Shown here in pieces: positions 11,296 to 50,111 of a stretch of 64,000 nt of DNA. The translations under genes and the position numbers were made by a program. Position 1 is the stretch's first letter, and each line of letters starts with the position of its first letter. The stretch covers positions 1 through 64,000 of the forward strand of contig JAUQQR010000002.1 in NCBI GenBank assembly GCA_030549835.1. Reading direction: 5' to 3'. Under the pieces are notes generated by a model that saw only the letters and a list, made by a program, of their open reading frames with translations, searched no databases and was not told the origin of the DNA. This DNA is from Thermoproteota archaeon (GTDB lineage Archaea; Thermoproteota; Thermoprotei_A; Sulfolobales; Acidilobaceae).

Positions 11296-11425
11296 GCCGC
11301 CGTAGCTCAGCCCCGGTAGAGCGCCGGACTCATACGGCCCAATCAGTTAGGAGTCGATAGAAGAGAGGGGAAAATGGGCCTGGGGGATCCGGAGGTCCCG
11401 GGTTCGAATCCCGGCGGCGGCACCA
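11296..11425 (+). tRNA. tRNA-Met(CAT), elongator type, with 52-nt intron
   Basis: The acceptor stem GCCGCCG pairs with CGGCGGC (11415-11421), A73 follows, and CCA is encoded at 11423-11425. The anticodon stem CCGGA (11324-11328) pairs with TCCGG (11388-11392). CAT is at 11331-11333. An intron at the canonical position 37/38 spans about 11335-11386; its ends (ggccca and tgggcc) can form the central helix of a bulge-helix-bulge for the archaeal splicing endonuclease. The G1-C72 pair and the CCGGA stem argue against an initiator tRNA; a tRNA-Ile2 (modified CAT) is the alternative. Confidence 0.93.
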
Positions 11426-42358: not shown

Positions 42359-44020
42359 TTGTGGTCTATCATAGATAATGCACCATTAGCTCTAAGACTC
42401 TCTCTGGCTATTATAGCGGTACTCCTAGTCTTATATTCTCTAGGCTTCTTAGAGTTTAGACTATTACTACTTAGTGGCTCTATTCTACTCTTACTCATAC
42501 TCTTATTTATTGGTTTGAGAGAATTTGGATTTCCTAGGGTTAATCTTAGTTCTAGTAGTGAGAGTTACTTTAGAGCTCTTGAAGTTGAGATTAGGAGTGG
42601 GAAGAGTGGTGCTGCTGGGGAGCTTTCTAGGATTATTAGTGATAGGGCTACTAAAACTAGTACTAGGTATATACTGTTATCTATTCTTGAGGGTGAGTTG
42701 AGGAGGTCATTTATAATTCTAGTCTCAGAGGATTCTAAGAAGATTAATGTTGAAGCTGAAGTTCTTAAAACACTATTAACTAGTCTAGTTGATGGTATAA
42801 GGGTTAGTGAAGTTAACTATGAGGAGTTAAGAGTTCTAGCCGACTGGGTATTAAAGTTAAATTTACACTCTAAGGGCTTACTCTTTATCTCAGATAAGAC
42901 TCTAGGCGAGAGGCAGTTAATCAATACTTCTTCAGCTAGTAGTGTAGAGAATAATTTAATCCTAGGAGAAGCTCTAGATAACCCCATGCCTAAGCCTTAC
43001 ACTTTAACTTTAAGAGATATTGAGGGACATATTGGTATTTTCGGATCTACAGGATCAGGTAAGTCTACAACATTATCTATAATAGTAGAGAGAGTGTGGA
43101 GAAACCTTAAAATACCAGTAATACTACTAGACTGGACTGGGGAACACGTAGTACTCTTCAAGACTCGAGGAATTCAATTTAAAGAGTATAATCCTATGGA
43201 TGGAGGAGCCTCTATAAACCCCTTAGATATTGAGAGTGATATAGACTACATTGTTAGTGTTATGGTTAAAGCTTTATCTCTAAGCCCTCCACAGGCATAT
43301 ATGCTTATGAGAGCCCTCGAGAGCTTTAAGCCTAGATCTTTAAGAGAATTAGAGGAGTCTATAGAAGCGTTAACTGAAGAGTCTAAGTGGGATAAGGAGG
43401 TTAAGAGAGCTCTCTTAAGGAAGATATCAATGCTAACTAGGGGGTCATATAATGCGTTTAAGGAAACTAAAAGTATAGAACTTAACGGTATAAGTATAGT
43501 AAGACTAGATTATATTAAGAATATATTAGCTAGGAAATCATATGCCTTATTCCTACTAGCTAGGATGTTTATGGAGAGATCTTCTAGTAATGAGAGTGAG
43601 CCTAGGATTCTAATAGCTATAGATGAGGCTCATAACATATTTAGTGGTGAAGAGTCCCACTTCATAGAGCAGTTATTCTCAGAATGTAGGAAGTATGGCG
43701 TAATACTAGCTATAGCTACCCAGTCTCCAGCATCAATACCTAATGGCATATTATTGAATACTAATACCAAGATTATACATGCCCTTAGGAGCTCTAGAGA
43801 TAAGACTATGATATCTGAGACTATGAGTCTTAAGAGAGAGTATGTAGATATTATTGATAAGCTCGGATCAGGTGAGGCTATAATACAAGCACCTTCAAAT
43901 CCAGAACCAACCCTTATACAAGTCCAGCTCGTGGATGAGTCTAGTAGTGAATTCAATAATATTAGGGTCTATAGAGAGCCAGTCAATATTGATACCAGTA
44001 TCCCAGGATTCTATTCTTGA
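42359..44020 (+). CDS. Membrane-anchored HerA/VirB4-like ATPase
   Basis: Two N-terminal membrane helices (about 12-30 and 32-53) precede a HerA/FtsK-type motor: Walker A GSTGSGKSTT near 227-236, Walker B LIAIDEAHN near 416-424, and ATQSPASIPNGIL near 447-459. Such anchored hexameric motors pump DNA or protein across the membrane or act in conjugation-like systems, but no pilus or relaxase gene is nearby. Start is TTG 42359. The last 126 bases overlap the convergent kinase gene, which is large for this genome. Confidence 0.85.
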   Translation: MWSIIDNAPLALRLSLAIIAVLLVLYSLGFLEFRLLLLSGSILLLLILLFIGLREFGFPRVNLSSSSESYFRALEVEIRSGKSGAAGELSRIISDRATKTSTRYILLSILEGELRRSFIILVSEDSKKINVEAEVLKTLLTSLVDGIRVSEVNYEELRVLADWVLKLNLHSKGLLFISDKTLGERQLINTSSASSVENNLILGEALDNPMPKPYTLTLRDIEGHIGIFGSTGSGKSTTLSIIVERVWRNLKIPVILLDWTGEHVVLFKTRGIQFKEYNPMDGGASINPLDIESDIDYIVSVMVKALSLSPPQAYMLMRALESFKPRSLRELEESIEALTEESKWDKEVKRALLRKISMLTRGSYNAFKETKSIELNGISIVRLDYIKNILARKSYALFLLARMFMERSSSNESEPRILIAIDEAHNIFSGEESHFIEQLFSECRKYGVILAIATQSPASIPNGILLNTNTKIIHALRSSRDKTMISETMSLKREYVDIIDKLGSGEAIIQAPSNPEPTLIQVQLVDESSSEFNNIRVYREPVNIDTSIPGFYS

Positions 44021-44509
44021 GATTAACTCTTCTACTCTAGGCTCACCATGTGTTGTATCTAGCTCTATAGTCATACTACTCCAGCTTCCTTCAACTATTT
44101 CCTCAGCTATTATATTAAAAGCTTCTGCTATAGTATTCTCTATTATCTTAGCCCTACTCCACCCCCTATCCTCAAGTCTCACTATTAATACTCTAGGATC
44201 GCATCTGAGTAGTATTATGAGTGGTATATAGTCACCTACAGTATTAAGCCAGAGTGATGGGTTTAATGTACTAACTACTAGGCAATTATCCTTCAAATTA
44301 TTTACATAGTCTTCTATAGTTTTTATAGCTTTAGACTCTACTATTACACTAGTCTCTCTACCTGTAGGATCTTCTACTAGAGCTCCTCCAGACTTAAATA
44401 GACTACTATCCTCTAAGCTTATGCAATTAAACTCTAAGGCTACCCTCCTAGAAAGAATACTCTTACCAGTTCCAGGCGTCCCAGTAACTATTATTATATA
44501 ATTAACCAA
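43895..44509 (-). CDS. AK6/Fap7-like nucleoside-monophosphate kinase
   Basis: The 204-residue protein has a P-loop VTGTPGTGKSILSRRVA near 7-23 and the compact LVVSTLNPSLWL and LIILLRCDPRVLIVRLEDRGW segments of the AK6/Fap7 group, which combine adenylate kinase activity with a role in small-subunit ribosome maturation. It carries a longer C-terminus than the usual 170-180 residues. That extra part is what overlaps the HerA-like gene, so the final 30-40 residues may be a recent extension. Confidence 0.82.
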   Translation of the reverse strand: MVNYIIIVTGTPGTGKSILSRRVALEFNCISLEDSSLFKSGGALVEDPTGRETSVIVESKAIKTIEDYVNNLKDNCLVVSTLNPSLWLNTVGDYIPLIILLRCDPRVLIVRLEDRGWSRAKIIENTIAEAFNIIAEEIVEGSWSSMTIELDTTHGEPRVEELISRIESWDTGINIDWLSIDPNIIEFTTRLIHELDLYKGWFWI

Positions 44510-44599: not shown

Positions 44600-44651
44600 G
44601 AAGTACCTTCATATAATATTATTGGAGAACAATATTAGGGGGGTGATAAGG

Positions 44652-46301
44652 TTGTCTACTAAACTACCTACTACTGAGGCTGTAGGAATACCAGTCATAA
44701 TATTAAAGGAGGGTACTAGTAGAACTTATGGTAGGGAAGCTTTTAGAGCAAATGCTATGGCAGCTAAAGCTATAGCTGAGATTCTTAAGACAACATATGG
44801 ACCTAAAGGTATGGATAAGATGCTTGTAGATAGTCTAGGCGATATAACGACAACTAATGATGGTGCAACTATACTCGATAAAATGGATCTCCAGCATCCT
44901 GCAGGTAAGATGCTAGTACAAATAGCTAAAGGTCAGGATGAGGAGGCTGGCGATGGTACCAAGACTGCTGTCATATTCGCTGGAGAACTCATAAAAGAAG
45001 CTGAGAAACTACTAGATAAGAATATACACCCAACAGTTATAATTGAAGGCTATAAGGCTGCTCTAGAAAAAGCTCTAGCGTATATTAATGAGTTAGCAGA
45101 GCCTATATCAATAGATAATGTAGATCTCTTAGAGCAAGTTGCTCTAACAAGCTTGAGTAGTAAGGCTATTAGAGAAGCTAAAGAGCACTTTGCTAAGCTA
45201 GCTGTAGAAGCTATTAGATCAATTGCTGAGCTTAGAGGAGATAAGTGGTATGTTGATCTTAGTAATATACAGATAATTAAGAAGCATGGAGGTAGCCTCC
45301 TAGACACTCAGTTAATTAAAGGTATAGTCCTCGATAAGGAGGTAGTACACCCTGATATGCCTAAGAGGGTTGAGAAAGCTAAGATAGCATTACTAGACGC
45401 ACCACTAGAAATAGAGAAACCTGAGATAGACTTAGAGATTAGCATCTCAAGCCCTGACCTAGTAAGGAAGCTTATGGAGAAGCAAGAGAAGATTCTAGGA
45501 GAGAAGGTAGAGAAAATAGCGGCTACTGGAGCTAATGTTGTTATAACTCAGAAAGGCATAGATGATATAGCTCAATACTATCTAGCTAAGAAAGGTATAC
45601 TAGCTGTTAGGAGAGTTAAGAGGAGTGATATTGAGAAGCTTGCTAGAGCAACTGGCGCAAAGATAGTAACTGATATTGATGACCTCAAACCAGAAGATCT
45701 AGGTGAAGCAGAACTAGTAGAGGAGAGGAGAGTTGGAGAAGATAAGATGGTATTTATTGAAGGAGCTAGGAATCTTAGAAGTGTAACTATAGTTGTAAGA
45801 GGAGGATTTGAGAGGCTCGTAGATGAAGCTGATAGAGCAATACATGATGCTTTAAGCGCTGTGGCAGACGCTGTAATGGATAATAAAATTGTAGGAGGAG
45901 CTGGAGCAGTAGAGGCTGAGCTAGCAAAACACCTATATGAATATGCTAGAACACTACCAGGTAAAATGCAGCTAGCAGTAGAGGCATTCGCTAGAGCACT
46001 AGAATCTATACCACAAATCCTAGCCTATAATGCAGGCCATGACCCAATAAATGTCCTAGTTAAACTAAGAAGTGCTCACGAGAAACCAGAAGGTAAATGG
46101 CTAGGAATAGATATAGAAACAGGAGACTTAATAGATACTATTAAAGCAGGTATAATTGATCCAGCAAGAGTTAAATCTAACGCATTCAAAGCAGGGGCAG
46201 AAGCAGCATCACTAATACTAAGAATAGATGATCTAATAGCAGCAAAGAGAACAGAAGAGAGGAGAGAGAAAGGTAGAGAAGAGAAGAAAGAGGAGGAGTA
46301 A
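44652..46301 (+). CDS. Thermosome subunit (group II chaperonin)
   Basis: The chaperonin folds proteins in a double ring. I choose TTG 44652 (MSTKLPTTEAVGIP) because a gggggtgat site lies 6 bases before it; the frame is open to 44622. Signatures: TTYGPKGMDKMLVD, TTNDGATIL, GDGTKTAVIFAGELI, and VVRGGFERLVDEADRAIHDAL shown in part. The tail is charged (ERREKGREEKKEEE) instead of the Gly-Met repeats of GroEL. Which of the crenarchaeal paralogs it is cannot be decided. Confidence 0.97.
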   Translation: MSTKLPTTEAVGIPVIILKEGTSRTYGREAFRANAMAAKAIAEILKTTYGPKGMDKMLVDSLGDITTTNDGATILDKMDLQHPAGKMLVQIAKGQDEEAGDGTKTAVIFAGELIKEAEKLLDKNIHPTVIIEGYKAALEKALAYINELAEPISIDNVDLLEQVALTSLSSKAIREAKEHFAKLAVEAIRSIAELRGDKWYVDLSNIQIIKKHGGSLLDTQLIKGIVLDKEVVHPDMPKRVEKAKIALLDAPLEIEKPEIDLEISISSPDLVRKLMEKQEKILGEKVEKIAATGANVVITQKGIDDIAQYYLAKKGILAVRRVKRSDIEKLARATGAKIVTDIDDLKPEDLGEAELVEERRVGEDKMVFIEGARNLRSVTIVVRGGFERLVDEADRAIHDALSAVADAVMDNKIVGGAGAVEAELAKHLYEYARTLPGKMQLAVEAFARALESIPQILAYNAGHDPINVLVKLRSAHEKPEGKWLGIDIETGDLIDTIKAGIIDPARVKSNAFKAGAEAASLILRIDDLIAAKRTEERREKGREEKKEEE

Positions 46302-46423: not shown

Positions 46424-46660
46424 ATGGGTAGGGTTAGGAGTGCTTTAGTTAAGAGAATTACTAGGAAACTATTAGAATCTTATCCAGACGTGTTTACTGG
46501 TAGTTTTGAGCATAATAAGAAAATTGTAGGCGAACTTATAGAATTTAAGAGTAAGAAGCTTAGAAACCAGATAGCAGGCTATATTACACATATTGTAAAT
46601 GCTTCTCTTAAAAGGAGAGGTTTAGTTAGAGGAGAGAGTGAGGAGTCTCTTCAAGGTTAA
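46424..46660 (+). CDS. rps17e: Ribosomal protein S17e
   Basis: The 78-residue protein MGRVRSALVKRITRKLLE, with FTGSFEHNKKIVGEL and IAGYITHIVN, is archaeal S17e of the small subunit. It begins with ATG after a ggggg site. The stop shares one base with the ATG of the following fusion gene, so the two are cotranscribed. Confidence 0.96.
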   Translation: MGRVRSALVKRITRKLLESYPDVFTGSFEHNKKIVGELIEFKSKKLRNQIAGYITHIVNASLKRRGLVRGESEESLQG

Positions 46661-47436
46661 TGCCAATAGTATACTCTACACTACTAGGTGTTAACTATAT
46701 GCCTATTATTAAGATTAAGTTGTTAGGTTACTTAAGGGAAGCTATTGGTAGTGACTACATAGATATTGAAGCTAATGATTGGGTTGAAGCTCTTATTAAA
46801 GCTAGAGAGATGCACTCTAGGATTAGTGATGCTATTAAACCTACAGGGGAGCCTAGCCCAGGCTACATGGTTTTCGTTGATGGAGTTGATTATAGGATAG
46901 CTAGTAGAGGTTATGCTAGAGAAGTAGCAATACTACCTATAGTCCACGGCGGGCAAGATAATGTCAGATTCCTAACATGGAATGATATAACTAGTACATG
47001 TAATATTGTAGCTGAGAGAATTATAAACTCAGGGTTTAAAGTAGATGTTATAGTAGGCATACTAAGAGGGGGAATTATACCAGCAACTATAATAGCTGAT
47101 ATTCTAGGTATAGAAGATATTGGAGTATTAGACATAAAATTCTACCAAGCACCTAATATTAGAAGAGAGAAGCCTATACTAAAACAACCCCTAACACTCC
47201 CAATATACAATAAAAACACATTAATAGTAGATGACGTTAGCGATACTGGAAGAACACTACAACTAGCCCTAGACTATATAAGACACTATTCTCCAAAAGA
47301 AATTAAAACAGTAACACTCTACGTAAAACCATGGACAAACCTAATCCCAGACTACTACGCAGAAATAACGGACAAATGGCTAGTATTCCCATGGGGCGCA
47401 TGGGAATACAAGAGGCAAATTACACAAACCAAATGA
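46660..47436 (+). CDS. Ubiquitin-like (MoaD/SAMP-type) domain fused to phosphoribosyltransferase
   Basis: Residues about 14-98 form a beta-grasp domain (MPIIKIKLLGYLREAIGSDY, VFVDGVDYRI) that ends AILPIVHGG, with the Gly97-Gly98 pair that small archaeal modifiers and MoaD use for activation. Without a stop the chain goes on as a purine phosphoribosyltransferase: FLTWNDITSTCNIVAERI (104-121), VGILRGGIIPA (132-142), and the PRPP motif LIVDDVSDTGRT (188-199). Start is ATG 46660, overlapping S17e, or ATG 46699. No start codon lies in frame between the domains. It could work as a fusion or be cut after the Gly pair. Confidence 0.8.
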   Translation: MPIVYSTLLGVNYMPIIKIKLLGYLREAIGSDYIDIEANDWVEALIKAREMHSRISDAIKPTGEPSPGYMVFVDGVDYRIASRGYAREVAILPIVHGGQDNVRFLTWNDITSTCNIVAERIINSGFKVDVIVGILRGGIIPATIIADILGIEDIGVLDIKFYQAPNIRREKPILKQPLTLPIYNKNTLIVDDVSDTGRTLQLALDYIRHYSPKEIKTVTLYVKPWTNLIPDYYAEITDKWLVFPWGAWEYKRQITQTK

Positions 47437-48116: not shown

Positions 48117-48644
48117 CTAGGTTGTAAATAGTGTGAATAGAGTTAGTGTTGTTTCCTTAGAGGGGATAGAGTGGAGCTTCTCGAGTCTCTTAACAGTTAT
48201 ATTCTCTAGGCTATCAATACTACATTTTACATATTCTAAGTCTATCTTCTTTTCATAACTTATACCTAATTCTCCTAGAATATCTTTAATATTATCTCTC
48301 ACTTCTCCCTTAAACCCTATAGCTATAATTAAGTGAGAGTACTTGATATTATCCACAACATCTCTAACCTGCTTAAACCCTAGGAGATTCATGAGAAATA
48401 ATATTGCCTTATTCCTAACCCTAGATCCTAAAATTAAGTCCTCCATAGTATATAGGTAAGATATTCCTAGCGAGCACGCATCTAAGTCCTTAAATGGTAA
48501 CCCTACAATAATAGGCTTCTCTCTCTTAACCCTAGTAGCTACTTCACCTACATCTACAGGTTTCTCTAACTCGATACTTAAAACCTCCACCTCAGTCCAC
48601 TCTAAACTAATAATATTTAACTTAACACTCTTAACTTCCATCAT
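48117..48644 (-). CDS. cgi121: Cgi121-like KEOPS subunit
   Basis: The 175-residue protein contains SRVRNKAILFLMNLLGFKQVRDVVD, shown here as RNKAILFLMNLLGFKQV, which fits the core of Cgi121 (asparagine, lysine, hydrophobic helix, then G-x-[RK]-Q-[IV]). Cgi121 binds tRNA and activates Bud32 in the t6A-forming KEOPS complex. It follows thrS on the same strand with 50 bases between, a sensible setting because t6A is found in threonine and other ANN-decoding tRNAs. Similarity is moderate. Confidence 0.65.
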   Translation of the reverse strand: MMEVKSVKLNIISLEWTEVEVLSIELEKPVDVGEVATRVKREKPIIVGLPFKDLDACSLGISYLYTMEDLILGSRVRNKAILFLMNLLGFKQVRDVVDNIKYSHLIIAIGFKGEVRDNIKDILGELGISYEKKIDLEYVKCSIDSLENITVKRLEKLHSIPSKETTLTLFTLFTT

Positions 48645-48695: not shown

Positions 48696-50111
48696 TTAGA
48701 GCATATGGCTTAAATCTGCTGGGATACGTGGGGCAAAACCGCTTATCTTAATAACTCCTTCTTCTTCTCCTCTTATAATATTCTCTAATTCTGTTAAGGC
48801 CTCATCTAAGCTACTATATTTTATAGTTTTACTGATTCTCTTCATTTCTTTATGGCTAAATATGCTTATTGTTAATATTGATTCTCTAACTTCTCTTGCC
48901 CCAATATAGATTATTATGGGTGGTTTTATTGTTGATTCAATACTCCTAATATCTCCTGGTAGGCTTGTCTTAGTTGATTCTTTTAATCCTACTCTTAGTC
49001 CATTGCTTAGTAGCTTTTCTCTTATGTTTATTGTCTTATCGAGTATGACTTCATCTACTTTCCAGTCTCCTGTTTTAATTGCTATTATTGCTACTTGTAT
49101 TGGTGCTAGCGCTAATGGGAGTCTCCCCCTATAGTGTTCTAGGTATCCTCCTAGGAATCTCTCTATTGAGCCTATTAGTGCTCTATGTATAATGTATACC
49201 CTATTATCTCCATAGACTTCTCTAATGATATCGTATATTTTGAATCTTCTTGGAAGGTTGAAGTCGAATTGTATAGTGCCCATTTGCCACTCTTTAACTC
49301 CACTACTACTCTTAAGTGTCATAATTATATCTATTTTAGGGCCGTAGAATGCTGCTTCACCTACTCCTATACTAGCTTTTATACCATACTTCTCAGCTAT
49401 AATACTAGTTATTTTCTCTAGAGTATCTTCTGCAGAGCTCCACTCCTCAATTGTACCCATAAAATCTTTACCTATGAGGTTCTTATCTGAGAGGCTAAGC
49501 CTAATACGTATATTATCCTGGCTTATAGGTAGGTTAAATACTGATTCTAGGAGAAGCTTTATCTCGTCAAATACATTTAGTATAACATTTAGAGTATCAG
49601 ATTCAAAGGTTATTATATGTGCATCGTCTTGAGTAAAACCTCTAACTCTTAAAAGCCCGTAGAGGCTACCGCTAGGCTCAAATCTATGTACTCTACCAAT
49701 CTCAAATATCTTAAATGGGAGTTTAACTTTACTCCTAAACCTAGCTATATGATTCAAGAATATTAAGAGGTGGTAGGGGCAGTTCATAGGCTTAAGTACA
49801 AACTCTCTATCCTCTATATTAAGAATGTACATGTTACTCTTATAGAAATCCATATGGCCTGATAGCTTAAAAAGCTCACTACTAGCTATTAGAGGAGTCT
49901 CTACAACTAGGTAACCTCTCCTAGAATGGAAATTAACTAGAATCTGCTGGAGAGCATGCCTAAAATAGCCCCCACCAATACTAAATAATGGAACACCGGG
50001 ACCAGAGAAGACTCCATACTCTCTATTAATAATAGGTACGCTAGACTCAGGCTTAATAGCTAAATCAAGTTCATACGCATAATCAATGTGATCTTTAACG
50101 GTACCACTCAT
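48696..50111 (-). CDS. thrS: Threonyl-tRNA synthetase, catalytic form without editing domain
   Basis: The 471-residue enzyme holds the class II core: motif 1 region with FRHALQQILVNFHSRRGYLVVETP (part), motif 2 KLPFKIFEIGRVHRFEPSG (cut), RGFTQDDAHI, and motif 3 HRALIGSIERFLGGYLEHY (cut), then the anticodon domain. The N-terminal TGS and editing domains are missing; the chain starts about 30 residues before the core. Some crenarchaea split ThrRS into a catalytic form and a separate editing form, and this fits the catalytic one. No editing partner is in the window. Confidence 0.95.
   Translation of the reverse strand: MSGTVKDHIDYAYELDLAIKPESSVPIINREYGVFSGPGVPLFSIGGGYFRHALQQILVNFHSRRGYLVVETPLIASSELFKLSGHMDFYKSNMYILNIEDREFVLKPMNCPYHLLIFLNHIARFRSKVKLPFKIFEIGRVHRFEPSGSLYGLLRVRGFTQDDAHIITFESDTLNVILNVFDEIKLLLESVFNLPISQDNIRIRLSLSDKNLIGKDFMGTIEEWSSAEDTLEKITSIIAEKYGIKASIGVGEAAFYGPKIDIIMTLKSSSGVKEWQMGTIQFDFNLPRRFKIYDIIREVYGDNRVYIIHRALIGSIERFLGGYLEHYRGRLPLALAPIQVAIIAIKTGDWKVDEVILDKTINIREKLLSNGLRVGLKESTKTSLPGDIRSIESTIKPPIIIYIGAREVRESILTISIFSHKEMKRISKTIKYSSLDEALTELENIIRGEEEGVIKISGFAPRIPADLSHML

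Follow-up and report, generated by a model that had tools for sequence, protein, structure and literature searches.

How might a ubiquitin-like modifier of the Urm1/SAMP type, a class characterised by a free C-terminal Gly-Gly, be supplied by a gene in which the Gly-Gly lies in the middle of the protein? The question is raised by a single gene in the window, by which we mean the whole 64,000-nucleotide stretch of DNA analysed here, from an archaeon of the family Acidilobaceae. In its translation, the Gly-Gly occupies residues 97-98 of a 258-residue frame, with no stop codon ahead of a purine phosphoribosyltransferase (PRTase); the encoded protein thus has an internal Gly-Gly, which only cleavage could free. 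We consider it probable, from the comparisons that follow, that the product is a proprotein that would be cut after its His-Gly-Gly (HGG) to give free Urm1 and free PRTase. The relevant features are as follows.

42359..44020, + strand: HerA-like ATPase, a conserved neighbour
43895..44509, - strand: adenylate-kinase-like NTPase (AAA_18), a conserved neighbour
44622..46301, + strand: thermosome subunit (Cpn60_TCP1), a conserved neighbour
46424..46660, + strand: ribosomal protein S17e (profile match), whose stop overlaps the first ATG of the fusion frame
46660..47436, + strand: Urm1-PRTase fusion gene, a single open frame (longest form 258 aa)
46699..46953, + strand: Urm1/SAMP-type beta-grasp domain, residues 14-98 (Urm1_like profile, AlphaFold/Foldseek, hhalign)
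46945..46953, + strand: His-Gly-Gly, residues 96-98, with the proposed cleavage point after Gly98 (invariant in aligned fusions; HGG-stop in separate genes)
46954..46974, + strand: variable linker QDNVRFL, residues 99-105 (sequence and alignment of fusions)
46975..47433, + strand: purine PRTase domain, GpT-2/HGXPRT-like, residues 106-258 (Pfam match, sequence and fold matches)
47227..47250, + strand: PRPP-binding motif VDDVSDTG, residues 190-197 (sequence motif)

What are the two halves of this protein? The preliminary description of this DNA had reported a beta-grasp domain that ends in Gly-Gly and continues in frame into a purine PRTase, and this architecture was confirmed by the reading frame, by the Urm1_like and Pribosyltran profiles and by AlphaFold modelling. 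The NCBIfam Urm1_like profile aligned with residues 18-98 through the last of its 79 positions (E = 6e-8), although its score of 32.7 bits is below the curated NCBI cut-off of 70, so that the match is a distant one, and hhalign gave a probability of 98.7 for the domain against a Sulfolobaceae Urm1. The beta-grasp fold, on which the preliminary description depended, also held: the AlphaFold model of residues 1-98 was confident (pLDDT 90.3), and its best solved Foldseek matches were the SAMP1 proteins of M. acetivorans (2L52) and H. volcanii (3PO0) and the Urm1 of S. solfataricus (4WWM). Translation probably starts at Met14 (46699), because it is at this residue that the alignment with relatives begins, and because residues 1-13, which are poorly conserved, have low confidence in the model. 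In the C-terminal part, Pfam Pribosyltran aligned with residues 113-246; the closest proteins were the HGXPRT (GpT-2) of S. solfataricus and the purine PRTase of P. horikoshii, with 4z1o and 1vdm matching by both sequence and fold. Residues V190, D191, D192, S194, D195 and G197 of the PRPP-binding motif are invariant. The PRTase domain is complete, with the fold and PRPP-binding motif of the GpT-2/HGXPRT type, and is predicted to be active.

The preliminary description had further called the N-terminal domain MoaD/SAMP-type. The SAMP-type beta-grasp stands, but Urm1 is a better name for the domain than MoaD, because it ends in HGG and lies beside the S17e, HerA and thermosome genes, as Sulfolobales Urm1 does. 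Almost every locus has S17e next to the fusion; the thermosome, HerA and kinase genes follow beyond it wherever the contig extends that far. This arrangement matches the S17, HerA and thermosome neighbourhood reported for Sulfolobales Urm1 (PMC2948915), and the N-terminal domain is therefore very probably the Urm1 ortholog. A profile search of the fusion protein found no MoaE domain after the Gly-Gly, the C-terminal domain being the PRTase; true MoaD-MoaE fusions are encoded at other loci of these genomes.

If the Gly-Gly must one day become a terminus, the junction should be conserved differently from the residues that follow it. Among 29 aligned fusions, nine of the 82 domain residues are invariant, and H96, G97 and G98 are among these nine; were nine invariant sites distributed at random, all three would be included with a chance of about 0.001. 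The residue immediately after the Gly-Gly has 11 identities in the same alignment, and the distance from HGG to the next Trp ranges from 5 to 15 residues, with 7 the commonest value. An invariant HGG followed by a variable linker is the pattern expected if the Gly-Gly terminus, rather than a spacer, has to be kept. The same pattern bears on the possibility that the fusion is a stable two-domain protein, in which an uncut Urm1 domain regulates, stabilises or localises the PRTase and HGG is kept for binding or structure. The frame, which has no stop or frameshift, would suit such a protein, as would the AlphaFold model of the whole fusion, in which a short linker (pLDDT of about 67 over residues 91-100) connects two well-folded domains; the linker right after HGG varies, however, while HGG does not, and we regard a stable fusion as unlikely.

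We also considered internal initiation as a second source of a separate PRTase. In the window this was ruled out, because its linker holds no ATG, GTG or TTG codon at which the PRTase could start. The same is true of 18 of the 31 fusions; the other 13 have such a codon within the linker, and in these relatives internal initiation may occur.

How widespread is the fusion? A search of relatives, as the preliminary description had proposed, found it in 31 genomes, all of the same GTDB family (Acidilobaceae) and several of them single contigs; they include 23 of the 25 family members that are at least 90% complete. The two exceptions at that completeness are G003, in which the gene is split, and G006, which yielded no more than a distant PRTase. 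Of 96 further genomes of the order that were searched, none carries this fusion. In families f4, f8 and f10, modifier and PRTase are encoded by two adjacent genes, of which the first ends exactly at HGG-stop and the second has a start that overlaps or abuts it. That the separate Urm1 of these sister families ends exactly at HGG is a second point against a stable fusion.

A third comes from the genus of the window itself. In a PRTase tree, the fused rows group together, except for an intruding long-branch Sulfolobaceae row and L034, a fragment truncated where its contig stops, which counts as unfused only for that reason. Two species of the window's genus, G002 and G003, fall within the fused rows as a pair with 99/93 support; each has two overlapping open reading frames, the modifier ending in HGGMLGG or HGGVFGG. 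This is, as judged from the tree and the sequences, a secondary split of the fusion that again left a Gly-Gly end, and separate genes function in these two congeners.

Could the fusion instead be an artefact of assembly, of stop-codon loss in a single strain or of gene decay? A single stop loss makes a fusion easily, and one locus (L092) has a single in-frame stop at the junction between HGG and the PRTase. However, the conserved motifs are intact in 31 genomes, several on single contigs, and such an origin is scarcely credible; a sequencing error or pseudogene was ruled out by the same 31 genomes. The preliminary description had named separate genes in all relatives, together with a sequencing error here, as the outcome that would count against it: separate genes do occur in part of the relatives (other families and two congeneric species), whereas the sequencing error does not hold.

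The next question is whether the cell has the means to cut and use such a protein. The preliminary description had suggested looking for a JAMM protease in the genome, and one is present: a 129-residue protein at G000:C8:2921-3310 with an intact motif, consisting of the catalytic Glu (E22) and HTHP...PS..D. Among solved structures it matches JAMM1 5LDA best (E = 1.4e-21), and it is closest to PfJAMM1. A first search of the genome with PF01398 gave no match, as that model misses this class of JAMM; the gene is detected by PF14464 and by a home-made profile. Either search located a JAMM in 24 of the 25 good genomes of the family; none was found in G065, a 92% complete genome that carries the fusion. 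The window's genome also has two E1-like genes, and the Urm1 domain may undergo E1 activation followed by lysine conjugation or sulphur transfer.

An apparent lack of JAMM in the Sulfolobaceae, seen with PF14464 alone, was overturned by the more sensitive home-made profile, which finds a divergent JAMM with an intact motif in that family. These JAMM-like proteins (L420-L425) were missed by the Pfam Prok-JAB model or fell under its cut-off. The Urm1 of the JAMM-bearing Sulfolobaceae ends exactly at Gly-Gly, which argues that JAMM does not require a fusion. A further point against the cutting role is that deconjugation alone may account for the presence of JAMM.

Does the presence of JAMM nonetheless go together with residues past the Gly-Gly? 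We recorded what follows the Gly-Gly in 230 ubiquitin-like proteins, a non-exhaustive sample drawn from 119 genomes of the order, and counted the association using the JAMM status given by the home-made profile only. Extensions past Gly-Gly occurred in 77 of 140 proteins from genomes with JAMM versus 4 of 90 from genomes without (Fisher, 4e-17), where the p-values here and below overstate independence, since the species share ancestry and JAMM and tails follow the same phylogeny, and where JAMM may have been overlooked in a genome counted as lacking it. When the MoaE and PRTase fusions were removed, the counts were 40 of 103 versus 2 of 88 (9e-11), and, outside the window's family as well, 20 of 43 versus 2 of 82 (2e-9); counted by genus, with MoaE fusions left out, they were 16 of 27 versus 1 of 24 (2e-5). 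In family f9, the genus with JAMM (g40) has tails such as SDLNPSSL and SNLNPSKLSN after VSGG, whereas related genera without JAMM stop at VSGG. The four extensions without JAMM are a single residue in G043, QQP in G111, a MoaD-MoaE fusion in the Ignicoccus-like G040, in which no JAMM was found, and the PRTase fusion of G065; another protease, or no cut at all, is possible in G040, G043 and G111. The tracking of tails with JAMM is the fourth point against a stable fusion.

The window's genome encodes three further ubiquitin-like proteins, which rules out the fused domain as the only one in this cell, and two of these also extend past the Gly-Gly (GGKLYCSTLGC and GGSINS). Both are MoaD-like (G000:C13:18189-18458 and G000:C24:32344-32598), and the second adjoins an aldehyde-ferredoxin-oxidoreductase-like gene. 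Family searches of the A. pernix-like G017 recovered only two convincing ubiquitin-like proteins, the Urm1 fusion and a MoaD-MoaE fusion; G026 and G034, which are related to it, additionally encode a ThiS-like protein that terminates in GG. The best match to the Urm1 profile in fused genomes is normally the fusion. The MoaD-MoaE fusions of the Aeropyrum-like G017 and G026 (L200 and L201) likewise have a Gly-Gly at the junction.

Of the two options in the preliminary description, a cut precursor or another role for the fusion, we favour the first, although it is not proven, because the HGG is invariant and the linker variable, separate modifiers of relatives end in HGG, congeners have re-split the gene, JAMM and E1-like genes are present, and JAMM and extensions track each other. 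The archaeal Urm1 would be synthesised as the N-terminal portion of the purine PRTase protein, and a PfJAMM1-like metalloprotease, whose gene lies elsewhere in the genome, would hydrolyse the bond after His-Gly-Gly. The freed Urm1 could then be adenylated by an E1-like enzyme to become a protein modifier, a sulphur carrier or both, while the released PRTase, with a short new N-terminus, would serve purine salvage. We infer that the bond is cut in this organism, that JAMM is the cutter and that free Urm1 has this role. A broader proposal would make JAMM a general maturase that gates the supply of ubiquitin-like proteins, many of them made as proproteins, in the JAMM-bearing lineages of the order, with the fusion coupling tag production to purine salvage and the enzyme becoming free or active only upon release of the tag; we consider this doubtful, though conceivable.

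Several known systems resemble the fusion. MoaX, the fused molybdopterin synthase of M. tuberculosis, is cut after Gly82 (PMC4326299), no protease having been identified for it, and the MoaD-MoaE protein DR2607 of D. radiodurans is cut by DRJAMM (PMC8832034). As in the window, a beta-grasp domain with an internal Gly-Gly is joined to an enzyme, and both are cut after the second Gly; MoaE, however, naturally works together with MoaD in a single reaction, whereas the window's tag is Urm1, its partner belongs to purine salvage with no known biochemical tie to the tag, and its cut is deduced by comparison. In Caldiarchaeum subterraneum, SAMP precursors are cut by CsJAMM and the CsUb precursor by CsRpn11, and PfJAMM1, which likewise cuts SAMP precursors, is described as a rather promiscuous SAMP protease (PMC6043591). 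These precursors are also archaeal modifiers with residues past Gly-Gly, matured by a JAMM-type protease, but their extension has not been described as a whole enzyme, whereas that of the window is a conserved enzyme domain of 150 residues.

Release might also be regulated, the fusion being a built-in urmylated, inhibited PRTase in which cleavage by JAMM would release the tag and at the same time activate the enzyme, as with HvJAMM1 and the SAMP1-inhibited molybdopterin synthase. SAMP1-linked MoaE is described as inactive until HvJAMM1 acts (PMC4443979, PMC8832034), and residual uncut MoaX occurs in mycobacteria (PMC4326299). The variable linker nevertheless speaks against a finely tuned inhibitory interface, as do the separate PRTases of neighbouring families against the idea as a whole, and we consider it very unlikely.

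Also similar is the Ubl-Cgi121 fusion of Thaumarchaea, for which SAMPylation or coordinated function was proposed (PMC2948915). In it, too, an archaeal ubiquitin-like domain is linked to a protein with a function of its own, and some genomes carry the gene next to S17; the attached protein, however, is a KEOPS subunit. In the window's order, G039 has a comparable Urm1-Cgi121 fusion. The Sulfolobus Urm1 (arCOG00540; 4WWM) shares the HGG end, the beta-grasp fold and the S17/HerA/thermosome neighbourhood, but is free-standing and terminates exactly at HGG.

JAMM-cut fusions at Gly-Gly junctions and Ubl-Cgi121 fusions are thus already known, while the PRTase partner and the order-wide link between JAMM and tails appear to be undescribed in the searchable literature. 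No prior report of a Urm1-PRTase fusion was found in the open-access literature, and an earlier report elsewhere is possible; a 2010 survey that included A. pernix (PMC2948915) does not mention phosphoribosyltransferases, nor does the passage on MoaD fusions in a 2024 survey of archaeal fusions.

If the precursor reading is true, archaeal Urm1 would be supplied by cutting an enzyme fusion, in close parallel to eukaryotic ubiquitin-ribosomal protein fusions, in which the modifier is synthesised at the N-terminus of another protein and freed by a cut after Gly-Gly; those differ in carrying ubiquitin rather than Urm1, another partner and other protease classes. JAMM proteases would also gain a lineage-wide maturation role besides deconjugation, with a simple comparative rule, that residues past Gly-Gly are found almost only where JAMM exists. 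The group that bears the fusion has cultivated members, so that the proposal is directly testable.

Some further observations concern other loci and the surroundings of the gene. Two JAMM-bearing genomes carry other in-frame Urm1 fusions across HGG: in L388 (G039:C1:21000-22200) the partner is a Cgi121 (KEOPS) domain (PF08617, E = 5e-8), and in L387 (G106:C10:76400-77700) it is a domain without a Pfam match that resembles Cgi121 by eye. By eye, the JAMM gene of the window's genome (L067, 2921-5362, G000:C8) lies downstream of a phosphodiesterase-like gene and ahead of a HAD-like phosphatase and an IMP-dehydrogenase-like gene, a possible purine link that is perhaps due to chance. A plasmid search gave no match. 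The thermosome gene is co-oriented with S17e in the window's genus, whereas most of the remaining family members have it inverted. A conserved-looking frame of 175 residues without a Pfam match (48117-48644, - strand) separates the fusion from a threonyl-tRNA-synthetase-like gene (48696-50111, - strand), in which no N-terminal synthetase domain is matched. Finally, a tRNA found by Rfam and missed by ARAGORN lies at 11296-11422 (+ strand), and its length of 127 nt suggests an intron.
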